NCBI GenBank assembly: GCA_016235065.1
Contig: JACRMB010000002.1
Span: 62,001 to 126,000 of the forward strand
DNA length: 64,000 bases
Reading direction: 5' to 3'
Source: Actinomycetota bacterium
GTDB taxonomy: Bacteria; Actinomycetota; Thermoleophilia; BMS3ABIN01
Below the pieces are notes generated by a model. The model was not told the DNA's origin, did no database searches, and saw only the letters and a program-made list of their open reading frames with translations. Position 1 is the first letter of the stretch, and each line of letters opens with the position of its first letter. The position numbers and the translations under genes are program-made. Positions 2,360 to 9,492 of this stretch are shown here, piece after piece.

Positions 2360-2887
2360 TTAATCTTCCTCGGGGTCGAACTCGGCCTCGGTATTGATCC
2401 CGTACTGGCCATACTTGTCCAGGACCATATCCCTTATCTCTTCAGTCTCAAGACCTTCAGAGTGCCACCGGATCACGTCCAGTGCGGTGTCGATGCATGT
2501 CGTTCAGGTCGAGCCGTGATCGTTGAACTCGATCCTGTCGCTGGTCCTGTATTTGACGAAGCAATCCAGGCTGCTGTGATGCTTGCCCGTCAGGGAGCAG
2601 CCGCAAAAGCAGGGAACCCTGCTGAACAGCTCCGGCATCTCTGCGGCGCTTCGGTAGGCGAGCTCTGATCCATTCAGGGCGTCGGCATCGTTTACAAAGT
2701 CAGGCAGCTGGAACTCAGGCTGCCTGCTGGCGGCGCTACTGAGGGATGTGAATACCGTGTAGCCGCCGAGTGCCAGTGTCATGAACAACAGGGTGCAGAT
2801 GATGGTGAAGAAAGTGGAGAAACCGGAAGAGCAGGATGATTCACATGAGGCGTGGGAGCCCTTTTGGTTCGTCTGATTGAGTACCAT
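2360..2887 (-). CDS. PCYCGC-family membrane protein A, putative selenoprotein with UxxC motif
   Basis: The family is unknown in function; the fold carries PCYCGC and a downstream CxxC, likely for metal or redox chemistry on the outer face of the membrane. The ATG at 2887 sits six bases after GGGAGAG. Residues 24-48 form one membrane segment, PCFCGC is at 92-97 and SLDCF at 107-111. At codon 128 the frame meets TGA (2504-2506) in HGST-U-TTC, where relatives have C-x-x-C. It then continues for 47 recognisable residues (IDTALDVIRWHSEG, EEIRDMVLDKYG) to TAA at 2360-2362, giving 175 residues. A hairpin lies 22 bases after the TGA. I recall the RefSeq product name 'CYCXC family (seleno)protein', which fits. 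Stopping at the TGA would remove the conserved tail. Confidence 0.82.
2466..2489 (-). promoter_or_regulatory. SECIS-like hairpin for selenoprotein A
   Basis: In the mRNA, CACCG-CAC (2489-2482) pairs with GTG (2476-2474) and CGGTG (2470-2466). There is a three-base ATC bulge on the 3' side and a five-base loop TGGAC (2481-2477). The loop begins 22 bases after the UGA and has G at its second position. This matches the known bacterial SECIS pattern: a short upper stem, a loop G near the start, and a loop 16-37 bases from the UGA. It was identified by eye; no folding energy was calculated. Confidence 0.6.
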
Positions 2888-2989
2888 CCGCAACTCTCCC
2901 AGTGCGGCCCGAAAATATTTTCCGGACCTTCGTCAAAACGCAGCTTAAAACCGCAGCTGTAATTCATAATCGACTCCCCGTAAATAAAT

Positions 2990-3016
2990 AAAAGCTCCGG
3001 GAGACCCGGAGCTTTT
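2990..3016 (-). terminator. Rho-independent terminator after the selenoprotein B operon
   Basis: A perfect 12-base inverted repeat, AAAAGCTCCGGG and CCCGGAGCTTTT, flanks the loop AGA. On the minus strand it is followed by TTTATTTATTT. It lies 72 bases beyond the stop of selenoprotein B and should end the arsR–cdf–cdf–selenoprotein B transcript, so gene A would need its own promoter. Confidence 0.85.
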
Positions 3017-3088
3017 ATGTAACTCTTGCCCGATGTGGCGGAGTGGCGGAACTGGAAACTCCCCCACAGGGGTGATGCCTGACCGGCG

Positions 3089-3610
3089 CTAGGGCACCGG
3101 TGGTGTGGGCGTCGGTTTGTAGCCGAGCTTTGAATACTCGGCGTCGATCCTCGCCCTTATCTCCTTAAGTGGAACTCCTTCTTTTTGCCACTGGCTCACG
3201 GCCAGTGCGATATCCACTCATATGTCTCAACCGGCGGCGTGCTTGTCGAAGACGATGTTGTCGCCGCTACCCGACTTGATGAAGCAGTCGAGGTTGCTGT
3301 CGTGCCCGTCAAGCTCGCCACAACCACAGTAACAGGGGATGTATTTCAGGACGTCCTGGTTATCCACTGCGAACTGATAAGCTTCCGCGGTTCCCTTGGG
3401 CACAGTCGGACCGTTTACATAGTCCGGGAGCTTAACCCCACCAGAGCCGGAGTCGGCGCCACCACGGGTCATTACCCAGCCCATGATCCCGCCTACCAAT
3501 CCGACAAGGATGACTACTGCAGCAAAGATGCCTATCGACATAGAAGAACCAGACGATCCGCCCTTGCCTGCAACTTTGCCACCTGCTGGTTTTTTCTTGC
3601 TCTTGGCCAA
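3089..3610 (-). CDS. PCYCGC-family membrane protein B, putative selenoprotein with UxxU motif
   Basis: This is a paralogue of the gene at 2360-2887. A TTG at 3610 follows GGTGGTGAG. A lysine-rich N-terminus precedes one membrane segment (about 25-48), PCYCGC is at 92-97 and NLDCF at 106-110. The frame meets two TGA codons, at 3227-3229 (codon 128) and 3218-3220 (codon 131), reading HAAG-U-DI-U-VDIALAV. These fall exactly at the two positions of the family CxxC. Translation then continues through GVPLKEIRARIDAEYSKLG to TAG at 3089-3091, 173 residues in all. A 7-bp hairpin follows the second TGA. The gene starts 25 bases after the CDF transporter stop, so it is probably the last gene of the metal-efflux operon. 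Its exact role is unknown. Confidence 0.82.
3189..3207 (-). promoter_or_regulatory. SECIS-like hairpin for selenoprotein B
   Basis: In the mRNA, CACTGGC (3207-3201) pairs perfectly with GCCAGTG (3195-3189) around the loop CGTGA. The loop begins 17 bases after the second UGA and 26 after the first, both within the 16-37 base range known for bacterial SECIS elements. The loop has G at its second position. It was identified by eye. Confidence 0.62.
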
Positions 3611-3635
3611 TTCTCACCACCTTCCGGGAAATCTT

Positions 3636-4655
3636 CTACACATGATTGATGTTGCAATAAGGCCCCACGACATCACAGGGCTCAGTCTCGAATTCCAGCG
3701 TAGAGTGCACGATCCCAAAATCCCGCGCGAGCATCTTCTTCAGGTCCGACAGGATGCGGCTGCTTTCACTAAGCATCACATCCTCGACCACCACATGGCA
3801 GCTGAGCGCGTATATCTCGGAGCCCAGCGTCCAGACATGGATATCGTGGATATCCAGAACGCCGTCTTCTTCCTTCATCTCGAGGACCAGCTGGTCCACA
3901 TCGATGGCCCTCGGCGAGCTCTCGAGGAAGATCTCCAGGGTCTCCCGGATTATCTGCCAGGCGCCCCAGAGGATGGCCAGACCCAGGCCGACGCTGATCA
4001 ACGGATCGACGACATACCAGCCTGTAGCCAGGATGATTGCACCGGCCACGATAACAGCTGCTGAAGCCGCCGCGTCACCCAGTAGATGCAGGATGGCACT
4101 GCGGATGTTGATGTCGCCCGAAGACCTCTTCCTCAGCACTACGACTATTAGTAGATTAGCACAGAGTGCCAGCATGGCAGTAATCATCACGATGGCGCCA
4201 CTGACCGGCTGGGGATCCAAAAACCGCTGGTAAGCCTCATAAAAGATCCAGAGGGTGACAGCGACCATGGCCAGCGAGTTAATCAGGGCGGTGAGTATCC
4301 CGGTGCGGTGGAACCCGAAGGTCTTGGACGCGGTCGGCGGCTTCCTGGCCTGCTCGATTGCATACCAGGTTATGCCCAGTGCCGCGATGTCGGTGAAGTT
4401 ATGGACGGCGTCGCTGAGCAGGCCCAGGCTGTCCGCCGCGAACCCGGCGACAACCTCGGCCACCACGATCAGGAGGTTGAGGGCGATGCCGGCGATCAGG
4501 CCGCGTTTGATGCCGCCCGCCGGTCCTTCTGCGCTGCCACTGGCGCCATGGCTCAGTCCACCATGGCTGTGTCCGCCATGTCGTCCGCCGCCGATCCCAT
4601 GGCCGTGGCCGCCCAGGCCGTGCCCTTCGTGGCCGTGTGGATGAGAGTCCTTCAT
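3636..4655 (-). CDS. CDF-family metal cation efflux protein (CzcD/ZitB-like)
   Basis: Exports divalent cations such as Zn, Cd or Co from the cytoplasm, probably in exchange for protons. The ATG at 4655 begins a His/Gly-rich cytosolic tail (HPHGHEGHG and further HGH clusters). Six membrane segments follow, carrying the metal-site motifs SDAVHNFTD and HLLGDAAAS. The cytosolic C-terminal domain holds DIHVWTLGS and NINHV. The length is 339 residues. A longer frame back to 4961 only overlaps the upstream gene out of frame and was not used. The start lies two bases after the stop of the preceding cation transporter, so the two are coupled. The arsR gene of the operon suggests induction by metal. 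Confidence 0.93.
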   Translation of the reverse strand: MKDSHPHGHEGHGLGGHGHGIGGGRHGGHSHGGLSHGASGSAEGPAGGIKRGLIAGIALNLLIVVAEVVAGFAADSLGLLSDAVHNFTDIAALGITWYAIEQARKPPTASKTFGFHRTGILTALINSLAMVAVTLWIFYEAYQRFLDPQPVSGAIVMITAMLALCANLLIVVVLRKRSSGDINIRSAILHLLGDAAASAAVIVAGAIILATGWYVVDPLISVGLGLAILWGAWQIIRETLEIFLESSPRAIDVDQLVLEMKEEDGVLDIHDIHVWTLGSEIYALSCHVVVEDVMLSESSRILSDLKKMLARDFGIVHSTLEFETEPCDVVGPYCNINHV

Positions 4656-4657
4656 GC

Positions 4658-5332
4658 TCACTCTTCCCTCGACTCCTCGATCGCTTCCCAGCCTTCCCTG
4701 ATGACCAGCGGCAACATGGCCAGCGCGGCCAGCGGATCGGCCCAGCCCCAGCCGAAGGCGGCGTTGAGCCCGAGTCCCGCGAGCAGGACCAGGGAAAGGT
4801 AAGAGCAGACCCAGGTCTCCATGGCGTCCGCCGCCAGCGCCTTGCTGCCCAGTCCGCGCGCCGTCCGCTGTTTCAGGAGCGCGAGCAGCGGCATTATCAC
4901 CAGCGAGGCTACGGCAAGAATGATGCCGGCCGGGCTTTCTTCGGCGCTGCCCCCGGTCCACAGCTTGTAAACGGCTTCAACCGTTATATACGCCGAGAGC
5001 GCGAGGAAGGTCAAGCCGATGATCAGCAGGGCACGGCGTTCCAGGGAGGAATGTTCGTCTTCGGAGATGGCGGATCCGATGCTGGTCTCCCGTTTCAGCC
5101 TCCACAAAAGGGTCATGCCGGCAGCTATCTCGATGACGCTGTCGAGGCCGAAAGCGACCAGGGCGACGCTGCCCGCTAGCACACCCGCCACGATCGCGAC
5201 CAGAGCTTCAATGGCGTTGTAGCCGACAGTGAAATATTCGAGGATCACGCCCCGGGCGAGGAGGGACTGGCGGTTGCGTGCGGCCGTGCCGGTGTCGGGA
5301 GTCGGCGGGCTGTTGTCGGGAGCTGGATTCAA
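4658..5332 (-). CDS. Cation efflux family membrane protein without the cytosolic domain
   Basis: A second, shorter cation-efflux protein (224 residues) that ends right after its sixth membrane segment and lacks the C-terminal cytosolic domain of ordinary CDF proteins. Visible motifs are FGLDSVIE in segment 2 and ALAADAMETWVCSYLS in segment 5, the equivalents of the CDF metal-site residues. I chose the TTG at 5332, four bases after the arsR stop and behind GGGATGAG. Starts further upstream would overlap arsR and cannot be excluded. With its neighbour it could form a heteromeric transporter or serve a different metal; that is inference. Confidence 0.85.
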   Translation of the reverse strand: MNPAPDNSPPTPDTGTAARNRQSLLARGVILEYFTVGYNAIEALVAIVAGVLAGSVALVAFGLDSVIEIAAGMTLLWRLKRETSIGSAISEDEHSSLERRALLIIGLTFLALSAYITVEAVYKLWTGGSAEESPAGIILAVASLVIMPLLALLKQRTARGLGSKALAADAMETWVCSYLSLVLLAGLGLNAAFGWGWADPLAALAMLPLVIREGWEAIEESREE

Positions 5333-5336
5333 AGGC

Positions 5337-5792
5337 TCATCCCGAAGTTGTGCCGCTGTCAGTTTCCGGCATGTTTCCGCTGACATGGCCGATATGGCCG
5401 ACTCCCTGCTCGAAAAGCTTCTCCACATGGTCGTCGTCCAGGGAGTACCAGGCGATGCGCCCCTCCTTGCGGAACTTCACCAGGCCAGCCATGCGCAGCA
5501 CCCGCAGCTGGTGTGATATGGCCGACTGGGTCATGTTCAGGGCAGCGGCTATATCGCAGACGCAAAGTTCGTGCTGCGCCAGGAGGGAGATGATGCGCAG
5601 CCTGGTGGGATCAGACATCACCTGGAAGATCTCGGAAAGCCGCGAGGCCGTCTCCCAGTCGATTGAAGAATCCTCGAGCTGATCCACGAGTTCCGGATGG
5701 ATGCATTCCACGTCGCATACATATTCGTGGGATGTTTTTGGCCGCTCAGCCGGATTCCCCGCAGGATGCTTTCTATGAATAGATGAACGCAT
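5337..5792 (-). CDS. ArsR/SmtB-family metal-responsive repressor, CadC-like
   Basis: Winged-helix repressor expected to release DNA on binding a soft metal. The alpha-3 motif ELCVCD and an N-terminal pair of cysteines (YVCDVEC) are the ligands of the CadC type (Cd/Pb/Zn/Bi). The recognition helix MTQSAISHQLRVLR and the wing FRKEGRIAWYSLDD are clear. There are two ATGs, at 5798 and 5792. I chose 5792 because a strong promoter places the transcription start exactly on its A. The gene heads the operon with two cation transporters and selenoprotein B, and probably represses it. Confidence 0.93.
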   Translation of the reverse strand: MRSSIHRKHPAGNPAERPKTSHEYVCDVECIHPELVDQLEDSSIDWETASRLSEIFQVMSDPTRLRIISLLAQHELCVCDIAAALNMTQSAISHQLRVLRMAGLVKFRKEGRIAWYSLDDDHVEKLFEQGVGHIGHVSGNMPETDSGTTSG

Positions 5793-5827
5793 ACTCATAT
5801 ATTAGGCCGGCAGGGGGATTTCGTCAA
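5783..5827 (-). promoter_or_regulatory. Sigma-70-type promoter for arsR, predicted leaderless
   Basis: TTGACG (5827-5822), 17 bases, then TAATAT (5804-5799). The predicted transcription start, seven bases after the -10, is 5792, the A of the arsR ATG, so the mRNA would have no leader. An imperfect repeat ATGA-N8-TCAT (5798-5783) overlaps the start and could be the ArsR operator, but it is weak. Confidence 0.7.
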
Positions 5828-5851
5828 TGGATCTAGCCAGCCAATAAAAAA

Positions 5852-5880
5852 GAGGCCGGGGTGTCCGGCCTCTCAAATAA
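5852..5880 (-). terminator. Terminator of the 3D-domain gene
   Basis: GAGGCCGG and CCGGCCTC (5852-5872) flank a five-base loop. On the minus strand the stem is followed by TTTTTATTGG. It lies 64 bases after the stop of the 3D-domain gene, between that gene and the arsR promoter. Confidence 0.85.
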
Positions 5881-5935
5881 TGCTCTGTGTTGGCTGATAG
5901 TCGGTTTTAGTGCCGATCCAGCCCGCGCTATGTGC

Positions 5936-7036
5936 TTAGTATATGGTGACCGTCACGGTCCTGCGGCCCCAGGCATATGCTTCGCCACAGGGCAGCCAGA
6001 CATCGACTATATTGCCCTGGATCGCGCCGCCGGTGTCAGCGGCGATTGCATCGCCATAACCGGAGACGTGCACCCGGCTGCCCAGCGGGATCACGCTCGG
6101 ATCCACGGCGATGATGCCGCGTCCCACCGGCATGCCGGTGGCCGTGGTGCCGCCGAGGCAATATGCGGTCGACTCCGCCGTGAAGCTGGTGCCGCCGCCA
6201 TGAGGCGCTGAATTATCCTCGGTATACTCGCCGCCGCCGGACTGGCTCTCCGAGGCTGACTGGATCTGGTTCATGCTACTCTCGATGCTGGCCGCCTGCG
6301 CCTGAAGCTGAGCGAGCTGCTCGTCGGTCAGCTGCTTCTCGCTCTCCAGTGAGCTCACAAAACTCTGCTGGCGGCTGTGGGCGTCCAGCAGGCCTGCCTG
6401 TGCGGAACTCAGTTCGTCGATAGAGGCCGCAAGCTGGTTCTGCATGTCCGAAAGGCTGGCGATCTTGTCCTCGATGCCACGCTTGGCATCCTGCACCGAT
6501 ACGATAAGTTCCCGGTCCTCGTCGGCGATGTAATTGATCATATCGACGCGATTGAGGAAATCAGAGAAATCGCCGGCGCCCATCACGACTTCCAGGTAGC
6601 CGACGTCATTGCTCTTGTAAGTACCGCGAAGCCGCTTTTCAAGGGCTCCCTGGCGCTGGTTCAGACTGGCCTGGAATTCGTTGAGGCGCTGCTGCTCGGC
6701 CTCGATCGCAGCCTGGGTGTCGGCGCGCCGCTGAGTGATCTCTGAGATATCGCTGCTGTAGCGGCCGACTTCGCTGTCTACAGCCACCAGTTCGGAGAGC
6801 GCCTGCTGGTAATCCGCGTCGAGTTCCTGAGACCTGGCTTCCAGGTCGCCTATCTGCTGGCTGGTCGTGCCCAGCTCATCAGCAGGAGTTGCCAGCGCGG
6901 AAGGAATGGCGAGAAGCGGAATGAGTAGAGCAGGAAGTAAGAAGAAAAGTTTTGGCAGGATAGATGATTTATGTTTGCCTGAGTGTTTAATAAAACCCGC
7001 TAGGATAACATCCTCCAATATTTGATGACGGTACAC
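5936..7036 (-). CDS. Exported coiled-coil protein with C-terminal 3D domain (cell-wall associated)
   Basis: Likely a peptidoglycan-acting or resuscitation-type protein outside the membrane. The 366 residues begin with a basic segment and a hydrophobic signal (LFFLLPALLIPLLAIPSALA). A long PcsB/CwlO-like coiled coil occupies residues 55-265. A Ser/Gly linker and a C-terminal 3D domain follow, with its three aspartates in AVDPSVIPLG, GDAIAADTGG and IVDVWLP. The 3D fold is shared with MltA and Sps/YocH-type proteins. The GTG at 7036 gives this length. GGAGG lies 25 bases downstream without a usable start codon nearby, so the true start is uncertain. A good promoter lies at 7175-7203. Confidence 0.85.
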   Translation of the reverse strand: MYRHQILEDVILAGFIKHSGKHKSSILPKLFFLLPALLIPLLAIPSALATPADELGTTSQQIGDLEARSQELDADYQQALSELVAVDSEVGRYSSDISEITQRRADTQAAIEAEQQRLNEFQASLNQRQGALEKRLRGTYKSNDVGYLEVVMGAGDFSDFLNRVDMINYIADEDRELIVSVQDAKRGIEDKIASLSDMQNQLAASIDELSSAQAGLLDAHSRQQSFVSSLESEKQLTDEQLAQLQAQAASIESSMNQIQSASESQSGGGEYTEDNSAPHGGGTSFTAESTAYCLGGTTATGMPVGRGIIAVDPSVIPLGSRVHVSGYGDAIAADTGGAIQGNIVDVWLPCGEAYAWGRRTVTVTIY

Positions 7037-7174
7037 CCCGGGAGGCCCTAATCCCCACTACAGAGCCAAAAATGCCCGCAAAAAACGGCCGTGGTTTCCA
7101 GAAAATGTCGCTATTTCCGCTATTTTCCCCACTTTTACGTTGACCATTGGGTTCTGGAACCCGGCCGAAGTGCG

Positions 7175-7203
7175 ACTATAGCATCCCCTAAAATGACATG
7201 CAA
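7175..7203 (-). promoter_or_regulatory. Sigma-70-type promoter for the 3D-domain gene
   Basis: TTGCAT (7203-7198), 17 bases, then TATAGT (7180-7175). The predicted start at 7168 leaves a 132-base leader before the GTG at 7036. Confidence 0.65.
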
Positions 7204-7225
7204 GCGATATAGTGACTATTGTCGC
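7204..7225. promoter_or_regulatory. Imperfect palindrome, possible operator
   Basis: An ATAGT-G-ACTAT palindrome is extended outward by GCGA and TCGC with a one-base offset. It lies immediately upstream of the -35 box of the 3D-domain gene and upstream of marC, a typical operator position. No regulator is assigned. Confidence 0.35.
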
Positions 7226-7339
7226 AAGCCCAGGAACAGGGGTTTCGGATAGCAGGGGAAGTGGCATTCGGCTAGAAACCGGTATGCGAGCGGGATGGAA
7301 GCAGGTAGGTCAAATCACATTATGTAATGGAGTCGCGAG

Positions 7340-7945
7340 ATGGATTGGAAACTTCTTATCACTACATTCATCACCATGGTGGTGATCATCGATCCCGTGG
7401 GTAACACCCCGGTATTCCTGGTGCTGACCGCGGACGAGAGCCCGGGGCACCGGCGCCGCTTCGCACTCCAGGCAGTGCTGGCAGCGGCGGCGGTAATCTT
7501 CCTGTTCGCATTCTTCGGTCAGTATGTGCTCGATTATCTGGGCATATCGGTGGAGAGTCTCACTATTGCCGGCGGCATCCTCCTGGGCATCGTCGCGCTC
7601 GATATGATGAAGGGCAAGCTGGACTCGAACCAGCAGGTGCGCCGGGGCGCTAATGCGGCGCTGGTCCCCCTGGGGACGCCTCTGCTGGCTGGTCCGGGTG
7701 CGGTGGTAGGCGCGATGCTGCTGATGGAGCGTTCTGAAGGCACGGACGGCAAGGCTCTGGTAGCGGGTGGCATCGTGGCAGCGCTGGCAGTCGTGCTGCT
7801 GGCGCTACTCGCTGCCGGCTGGCTCGTACGGATATTAAAGGACACGGGCGTCGATCTGCTCACCCGTGTCATGGGCATCCTTCTGGCCGCAATAGCTGTT
7901 GAGTTCATCCATCAGGGGATAGCCAGCTGGGTAAACGGCAGCTGA
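7340..7945 (+). CDS. MarC-family integral membrane protein
   Basis: A 201-residue membrane protein with six predicted helices and the family signatures IIDPVGNTPVFL near the N-terminus and PLGTPLLAGPGAV in the middle. The family (also called UPF0056/SNG1-like) has no firmly proven substrate. Some relatives are implicated in amino-acid export. The ATG at 7340 follows GGAG at nine bases. The stop codon lies inside the first copy of a short tandem repeat. It stands alone on this strand, divergent from the 3D-domain gene. Confidence 0.9.
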   Translation: MDWKLLITTFITMVVIIDPVGNTPVFLVLTADESPGHRRRFALQAVLAAAAVIFLFAFFGQYVLDYLGISVESLTIAGGILLGIVALDMMKGKLDSNQQVRRGANAALVPLGTPLLAGPGAVVGAMLLMERSEGTDGKALVAGGIVAALAVVLLALLAAGWLVRILKDTGVDLLTRVMGILLAAIAVEFIHQGIASWVNGS

Positions 7946-7999
7946 CAGGCACAAGGGATGCGCTGACTGGCACAAGGGATGCGCTGACTGGCAGACAGG
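7942..7999 (+). repeat. Short tandem repeat over the marC stop codon
   Basis: A 21-base unit, CTGACTGGCACAAGGGATGCG, occurs as copies at 7942-7962 (one mismatch) and 7963-7983, with a partial copy at 7984-7999. The first copy contains the TGA of marC, so expansion would not alter the protein. Confidence 0.8.
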
Positions 8000-8110
8000 A
8001 TTTTTCTGGTTCAAGATTGAAACCGTCCGCAATCGGGCAGAATTTCAGAAGTCCAGAGTAAAACTTGTGGGATCGATGGTTCCAGCACTGAAAAGAAGGA
8101 GGAGCAAAGA

Positions 8111-8218
8111 ATGGCTATTTTCAAATGCGACGAATGCGGATCGTCCAAAGAGGGAAGGTGCAAGCCGAAGAAATGCCCCGATTGTGGCGCTGAAGGCACC
8201 ATGACCAAGCAGGGATGA
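8111..8218 (+). CDS. RCKP-type rubredoxin-like zinc ribbon protein
   Basis: A 35-residue protein with CDEC near the start and CKPKKCPDCG in the middle, ending GTMTKQG. It matches the small 'RCKP-type rubredoxin-like' family, in which two cysteine pairs bind one iron or zinc. It is preceded by AAGGAGG eight bases before the ATG, so it is well translated. It leads the oxygen-defence cluster by 56 bases and may act as a small electron carrier for the next protein. That role is inferred from position only. Confidence 0.8.
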   Translation: MAIFKCDECGSSKEGRCKPKKCPDCGAEGTMTKQG

Positions 8219-8274
8219 AACGGCAGCCCTGAACGGGCTGTCAGCATAAAAAAGGCACGCGCGAAAGGAACTAT

Positions 8275-9492
8275 ATGAAGGGTGTTGAGATCAAGCCGGA
8301 TATACACTGGGTCGGGGCGGTAGACTGGCCGGTCAGGGATTTCCATGGGTATGTCACTCCCAAGGGAACGACTTACAACAACTACCTTATCAACGACGAG
8401 GATATAACGCTGGTCGATACGGTGAAGCACGACTTCGCCGAGGTGTCGTTGCGTAATATCGCCAGCATCGTCGATCCGGCGAAGATCAAAAACATCGTCA
8501 TCAACCACGTGGAGAACGACCATGTGAGCTCGCTGGGGCAGTTCATGCATATCATCCCGTCCGCGCATATATATATAAGCGAGCGCGGCCGGCAGGTCAT
8601 CGAGCGGTTTTTCGATACTTCAGCATGGGACATAACCGTGGTCAAGACCGGGGACGAGCTGAAATGTGGCAGATACACGCTGCAGTTCATCGAGACGCCC
8701 ATGCTCCACTGGCCGGACTCGATCATGACCTATGTGAAAGAGGCCAGCCTCCTGATATCCCAGGATGCGTTCGGGCAGCATCTCGCCACGAGCGTCAGGT
8801 TTGACGACGATTTCATAACCTGTGCCTCTCACTCGCAGCTGGACGAGGCGGTCATCGACTACTACGCCAATATCCTCATGCCCTTCGGGGCCCTGATCAA
8901 GTCGAAGATCAAGGCGATACAGGAGATGGGGATCCCGATCGACATGATCGCCCCGGATCATGGCCTGATCTGGCGCGGAGCCCCGGAACACGTGCTCGAC
9001 ATGTATATGGGCATGGCCAACGGCAGGGCCGACCTTTCCATCGCCATCATCTACGACACCATGTGGAAAAGCACCGAGATAATGACCGAACCGCTGGTCC
9101 AGGGAATCACAGACGAAGGCGTCGACTGCAAGGTGATAAAGCTGCGCGAGACCCCGATGAGCTTCGCTATCACGGACTTCTGGAAGTCCCGCGGGTGTCT
9201 GGTGGGTTCGCCCACGCTCAACAACGAGGTCTTCCCGTCGATGGCGCAGTTCATGACCCATCTCAGGGGTCTGCGTCCGAAGGACCGGATGGTGGGAGCG
9301 TTCGGCAGTTATGGCTGGGGTGGCGGCGCGGTCAAATGGCTCTACGGCCAGTTCGAGGAGATGAAGCTCAAGGCTGTAGAAGGTGGCCCTGAGGTCAAGT
9401 ACAAGCCGTCTTCCGAAGAGTTCCAGCAGTGCTACGAGTTCGGCCGGGAGTTCGCCAGACAGGTGCGGGAGTATCACCAGCAATACGAATAG
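8275..9492 (+). CDS. A-type flavodiiron protein (FprA/rubredoxin:oxygen oxidoreductase)
   Basis: Cytoplasmic enzyme that reduces O2 to water (and in some relatives NO to N2O) with electrons from rubredoxin or F420H2. The 405 residues comprise a metallo-beta-lactamase-like di-iron domain with H78-x-E80-x-D82-H83. Further ligands lie in [14 protein letters not shown] and APDHGLIW. A flavodoxin domain from about residue 255 has the FMN loop YDTMWKSTE and [21 protein letters not shown] precedes the ATG. The following rubredoxin gene supplies the probable electron donor. Confidence 0.95.

Follow-up and report, generated by a model that had tools for sequence, protein, structure and literature searches.

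Two in-frame TGA codons three residues apart interrupt a small gene of an uncultured actinomycetotal bacterium, which raises the question of whether both are read as selenocysteine (Sec), by what signal, and to what end. The window, i.e., the whole stretch of 64,000 nucleotides analyzed here, carries this gene on the minus strand at 3089-3610 as a frame of 174 codons that opens with TTG at 3610, closes with TAG at 3089-3091, and encodes 173 amino acids. Read from 3610 to 3089 on the reverse strand, the translation is LAKSKKK...PCYCGCGELDGHDSNLDCFIKSGSGDNIVFDKHAAG-U-DI-U-VDIALAVSQWQKEGVPLKEIRARIDAEYSKLGYKPTPTPPVP-stop (TAG), with the first UGA (UGA1) at 3227-3229 and the second (UGA2) at 3218-3220, just where an earlier note on this DNA had placed them. 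With Sec read through, the product comprises a basic N-terminus, one hydrophobic helix at that end, and a Cys/Sec domain of 115 residues in which P-C-Y-C-G-C, one more Cys, and then U-D-I-U (a UxxU motif) follow in order. Standard gene calling stops such proteins at the first UGA and thereby loses the two Sec together with the 42 C-terminal residues.

The analysis of family membership places the product among the PCYCGC proteins, since the PF13798 profile, its sole Pfam match, scores 99.1 bits over residues 71-170 (curated cut-off 25) and runs through both TGA codons. In a 49-sequence alignment (domain numbering, Sec written as Cys), C35, C37, C39, and C51 are invariant together with the TGA positions 70 and 73, so that the product holds both the PCYCGC motif and the later Cys pair, here Sec/Sec; the proposal that both TGA fall on the family CxxC positions is thereby borne out. 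Classification of 163 distinct homologues yielded 93 CxxC, 56 UxxC, 14 UxxU, and no CxxU forms, the first position being Sec or Cys in all 163 and the second being Sec only in the host's own genome family (f1, uncultured Thermoleophilia, including bacterium BMS3Abin01) and Cys elsewhere. As UxxC occurs across phyla and CxxU not at all, the first position reads as a widespread Sec site and the second as an addition. The host genome itself contains four PF13798 genes, with UDIU (the gene at 3089-3610), UTTC (its tandem neighbor), UGLC, and CTTC at these positions. The tandem paralogue (2360..2893, minus strand, start codon uncertain) has a single UGA at 2504-2506, followed by its own bSECIS-like hairpin, CACUGGA-CGUGA-UCCGGUG (2466..2484, minus strand), with the loop 26 nt after that UGA; its orthologue in G005 (L042) is UPTU where the host has UTTC, which demonstrates that the second position does switch.

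The spread of the UxxU form was examined in the genomes of this and other phyla, with the scan of genome contigs for relatives taking in the best 80 of 296. PF13798 was found in all 19 f1 genomes searched and a UxxU gene in 11 of them, while no UxxU was present among the PF13798 matches in 396 genomes of the same phylum outside f1, or in the phyla of G424 (400 genomes), G426 (395), and G427 (95). Two-TGA matches beyond f1 (G858, G1187, G1234, G1300, G1309, and G1320; L211-L216) were all read out, and none is UxxU. UxxU thus appears, from comparison of sequences, to be a new variant of the PCYCGC protein that is confined to f1 in the genomes searched. On the protein tree, its distribution needs four label changes, two of them forced by well-supported branches; the phylogenetic independence of the occurrences is limited. 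Separately, in Methylomirabilota, the phylum of G427, PF13798 occurs in 70 of 95 genomes, nearly all with one TGA, and single-Sec PCYCGC proteins are near-universal there.

The capacity to decode UGA as Sec was examined in the host genome (2.37 Mb, 98.9% complete), where family searches recovered selA (575 bits), selB (325 bits, or 359 once its neighboring sequence is included), and a UCA-anticodon tRNA-Sec (67.8 bits) that ARAGORN confirmed, clustered within C3:294333-298125. selD (370 bits; G000:C3:16902-17834, L050) has its own in-frame TGA and is probably itself a selenoprotein; moreover, selA was found in all 19 genomes of f1 searched. The machinery of a bacterial selenoprotein gene is therefore in place, and both UGA codons align with conserved Cys. 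The absence of selABCD, which the earlier note had named as fatal to its reading, is thus not what the genome holds, and the other such outcome, homologues that end at the first UGA, was not seen among the TGA-bearing homologues read out, all of which keep the same tail. Genome-wide UGA recoding was considered and rejected because TGA ends 14 of the 32 long open reading frames in the window, in line with the note's own view. Its claim that coding sequence continues past UGA2 was further strengthened by substitution rates: in comparisons with six UxxU genes from the same genus, the 34-codon stretch that follows UGA2 gave dN/dS pairs of 0.013/0.26, 0.052/0.67, 0.052/0.67, 0.15/0.96, 0.29/1.76, and 0.27/1.21, i.e., dN far under dS and much like the stretch before UGA1. 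The tail is translated and under purifying selection.

The candidate decoding signal is a bSECIS-like hairpin, CACUGGC-CGUGA-GCCAGUG (3189..3207, minus strand), with a 7-bp stem pairing 3201-3207 with 3189-3195 and the CGUGA loop at 3196-3200. The earlier note had described this hairpin correctly and misstated its spacing, as it is the loop that starts 17 nt after UGA2 (26 nt after UGA1), the stem starting 10 nt after UGA2. By the published bSECIS model, the loop should have 3-9 nt with a G among its first two, the stem 4-16 bp, the UGA-loop distance should be 16-37 nt, and the folding energy at most -7.5 kcal/mol (PMC13188914). From both UGA codons, the hairpin agrees with the model in loop (5 nt), stem (7 bp), G (position 2), and spacing (26/17 nt), and folding of the 57 nt downstream of UGA1 gives -14.8 kcal/mol. 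Rfam returned no SECIS match near the UxxU gene, and on its own the hairpin is modestly unusual, being matched by about 3-4% of synonymous shuffles of the coding sequence. Across the family, a bSECIS-like hairpin occurs in all 70 TGA-containing homologues found; a stem of at least 5 bp with a loop start at 21-26 nt is present in 14/14 UxxU and 55/56 UxxC genes and in 5/93 CxxC genes. Within f1, 97.3% of alignment cells pair, 12 cells are changed on both sides, and the covariation score was matched by none of 500 shuffles. Other phyla have different stems (CAUCACG-CGUGA-CGUGAUG and UAGCC-CGUGA-GGCUA) in another register, which covary independently of the f1 set. It is this fixed position and covariation across homologues that set the hairpin beyond chance.

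Comparison of the hairpin register among these classes placed the loop start of each of the 14 UxxU genes 26 nt downstream of UGA1, hence 17 nt downstream of UGA2. In UxxC genes outside f1 (the Chloroflexi row L070 being counted here), the loop lies at 21-22 nt in 43 of 44 and at 16 nt in one, and within f1 UxxC genes have it at 22-26 nt, with 26 nt in 7 of 12. A loop at 21 nt would fall 12 nt after UGA2, outside the bSECIS model and too close for a second UGA. A second hairpin of at least 5 pairs for UGA2 was sought further downstream, and none was found. Given this and the published spacing rules, it is likely that a single hairpin would serve both codons, with distances to the loop of 26 nt (UGA1) and 17 nt (UGA2), and the simplest reading is that the shifted register would be a precondition for the second Sec.

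On the comparative genomic evidence, it is very likely that SelA, SelB, SelD, and tRNA-Sec would read both UGA1 and UGA2 as Sec to give a membrane-anchored Cys-x-Cys-x-Cys ... Cys ... Sec-x-x-Sec protein, and two other readings of the codons have to be weighed against this. One is that UGA1 is a normal stop, the remainder being untranslated or a pseudogene; standard annotation would close the gene at this codon, and many window genes do end in TGA; nevertheless, selection on the tail, the same UGA in homologues of several phyla with a covarying hairpin, and the complete Sec machinery leave this reading scarcely credible. Decoding of two successive UGA codons is expected to be inefficient, and UGA1 is, across phyla, the more ancient Sec position, so one may suppose that UGA1 alone is decoded, with UGA2 acting as a regulated or leaky stop and the product mostly ending right after the first Sec. 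This is rendered very improbable by the strong purifying selection after UGA2, by the location of UGA2 on a conserved Cys with which it alternates between orthologues (UTTC in the host, UPTU in G005), and by a UGA2-to-hairpin spacing inside the bSECIS model. Decoding of both codons as Sec therefore stands as the preferred reading, within which decoding of UGA2 could be partial.

The genomic context of the UxxU gene offers further insight into what such a protein might do. On the minus strand, the gene order is an ArsR/SmtB repressor (5337..5798; NF033788, 106.6 bits), a CDF-like transporter with the membrane part only (4658..5428; 69 bits, under the family cut-off of 82), a CDF-family cation efflux transporter with a His-rich N-terminus (3636..4655; TIGR01297, 250.8 bits; the open reading frame opens at 4961, the likely start Met being at 4655), the UxxU gene, a terminator-like hairpin (2988..3018, minus strand; 14 pairs and a T-rich tail, a match to the consensus only), and the UxxC paralogue, after which ligA lies on the opposite strand. 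The repressor appears, by alignment, to carry the four metal-binding cysteines of a CadC-type regulator: its C28, C32, C79, and C81 correspond to CadC C7, C11, C58, and C60 in an equal-length match (query 28-140 to 1u2w 7-119), are also placed by a residue-level alignment to the relative Lmo1102, and in CadC are the Cd/Pb/Zn ligands (PMC4287715). The same four cysteines are kept in most relatives, the N-termini of L067 and L069 having diverged. Two side observations concern this region. A promoter-like site, TTGACG-17-TAATAT (5799-5827, minus strand), ends one base ahead of the ArsR ATG, a position that would point to leaderless transcription or a later start; and near the 3' end of the UxxU gene, positions 3033-3090 of the plus strand look like the first part of a Leu/Ser-type tRNA (GCCCGATGTGGCGGAGTGGCGGAACTGG), although ARAGORN calls no tRNA there and the resemblance may reflect a remnant or chance.

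The association with metal transport was followed in the relatives. Each of the 13 loci that bear UxxU (L042 carries two such genes) has an adjoining CDF gene upstream. In genus g3 and in G012, UxxC genes occupy this same site, flanked by a 3D-domain hydrolase and ligA, and no CDF gene is there. A ligA tree leaves room for the CDF-UxxU state having arisen once, so that these loci amount to an association and not to repeated coupling, and the association may trace to one ancestral event. Farther afield, a UxxC gene in Caldilineae (L105, within 2739-8827) is flanked by two Zn/Cd/Hg/Pb-type P-ATPases, the PF13798 gene of L205 adjoins a CusA/CzcA pump, and a UxxC gene in Bacillus (L082) lies near CorA and a membrane protein that is ZIP-permease-like by eye and matches no family model. 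Many homologues have no metal transporter nearby, and the core role of the family may therefore be something else.

For the protein of the window, we infer from this context, at somewhat better than even odds, an outward soft-metal site next to CDF pumps in a metal-derepressed CadC-like operon. The outward-facing domain would bring together four Cys, two Sec, and near-invariant His residues as a soft-metal site, which would sequester or hand over Cd, Pb, Zn, or a similar metal beside the CDF efflux pumps, and the metal would derepress the operon through the CadC-like repressor. The earlier note had guessed at a soft-metal site without the CadC-like/CDF operon, and the guess gains support from that context. 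The structural model of the domain is confident (pLDDT 97.1, pTM 0.90) and mostly helical, with UxxU starting a long helix; no structural relative was found at E <= 0.001 in PDB or the viral library, and phmmer found no solved relative of the domain.

The main rival to a soft-metal role is selenol redox chemistry, in which UxxU would cycle between diselenide and selenols as in a thiol/selenol oxidoreductase or a peroxidase-like protein, and the metal pumps would reflect the redox stress that accompanies metal stress. A CxxC motif at the start of a helix is typical of thioredoxin-like proteins, and the CxxC-like UxxU is so placed here; in addition, L195 adjoins a DsbE/ResA-like thiol-disulfide protein, and most known selenoproteins are redox-active (PMC9312934). 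Against this, the domain model resembles no solved fold and, lacking a PDB match at E <= 0.001, gives no support for assignment to the thioredoxin fold, the four further invariant Cys resemble ligands or structural disulfides, and the CadC-like/CDF operon points to metals. A redox role seems to us rather unlikely, with the soft-metal role as the best inference. Overall, we put the whole explanation, a two-Sec membrane-anchored protein with one hairpin and a soft-metal role, at roughly 70%. The evolutionary chain in full, whereby one bSECIS would decode two UGA nine nt apart, the downstream displacement of the hairpin by about 5 nt relative to UxxC genes of other phyla would bring UGA2 within the permitted spacing, a one-base TGC-to-TGA change would then yield the second Sec, and the result would be an extra-membrane bis-selenolate soft-metal site working with CDF pumps, seems to us about evenly poised.

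Such findings provide a natural series of CxxC, UxxC, and UxxU forms, represented by paralogues in a single genome and by orthologues in different genera, along which the second Sec is gained or lost by codon change while the hairpin remains. The series opens two testable questions, namely the spacing range of one bacterial SECIS and the benefit of a second selenium to the protein. If the metal role is true, selenium would serve in extracytoplasmic heavy-metal handling, beyond redox catalysis alone, and the UxxU gene presents a rare, testable case of paired selenium in a metal-efflux operon.

Compared with known systems, PF13798 is already in selenoprotein lists as CYCXC/OS_HP4, a UxxC family with one Sec (Zhang and Gladyshev 2007, as listed in PMC13188914). 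The selenoprotein reading of the earlier note is thus supported and its novelty narrowed to the second Sec, as the one-Sec family was known (PMC13188914; NCBIfam NF041379). The window protein shares with CYCXC/OS_HP4 the Pfam domain, the PCYCGC motif, Sec at the first CxxC position, and a downstream hairpin, and differs in having two TGA where the listed form has one, and a hairpin loop at 26 nt where the UxxC genes of other phyla show 21-22 nt. NF041379, the sole NCBIfam match, scores 75.4 bits under a curated cut-off of 90, so the product is related to that model and not filed under it. Paired Sec had been called rare in bacteria, a view to be tempered by the UxxU already listed for Prx-like, FmdB-like, and NF041115 families. 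The Prx-like and FmdB-like proteins (PMC13188914) likewise place two bacterial Sec three residues apart, in unrelated domains. NF041115, a UxxU metal-binding (seleno)protein (putative mercuric reductase/MerP-like), is alike in having UxxU in a protein named metal-binding but is a different family, the window protein matching only PF13798 and NF041379. No description of UxxU in PF13798 was found in the literature searched; an earlier mention is possible, as the two primary accounts of this family and of recent selenoprotein neighborhoods lay outside that search. As far as this literature shows, the new elements are UxxU in PF13798, its restriction to a single lineage, the register of the hairpin, and the operon with a CadC-like repressor and CDF genes. 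That operon resembles CadC-type cadmium efflux operons in its repressor cysteines, matching CadC C7, C11, C58, and C60, and in its adjacent cation efflux genes, and differs from them in having CDF pumps instead of a P-type ATPase, together with selenoproteins.
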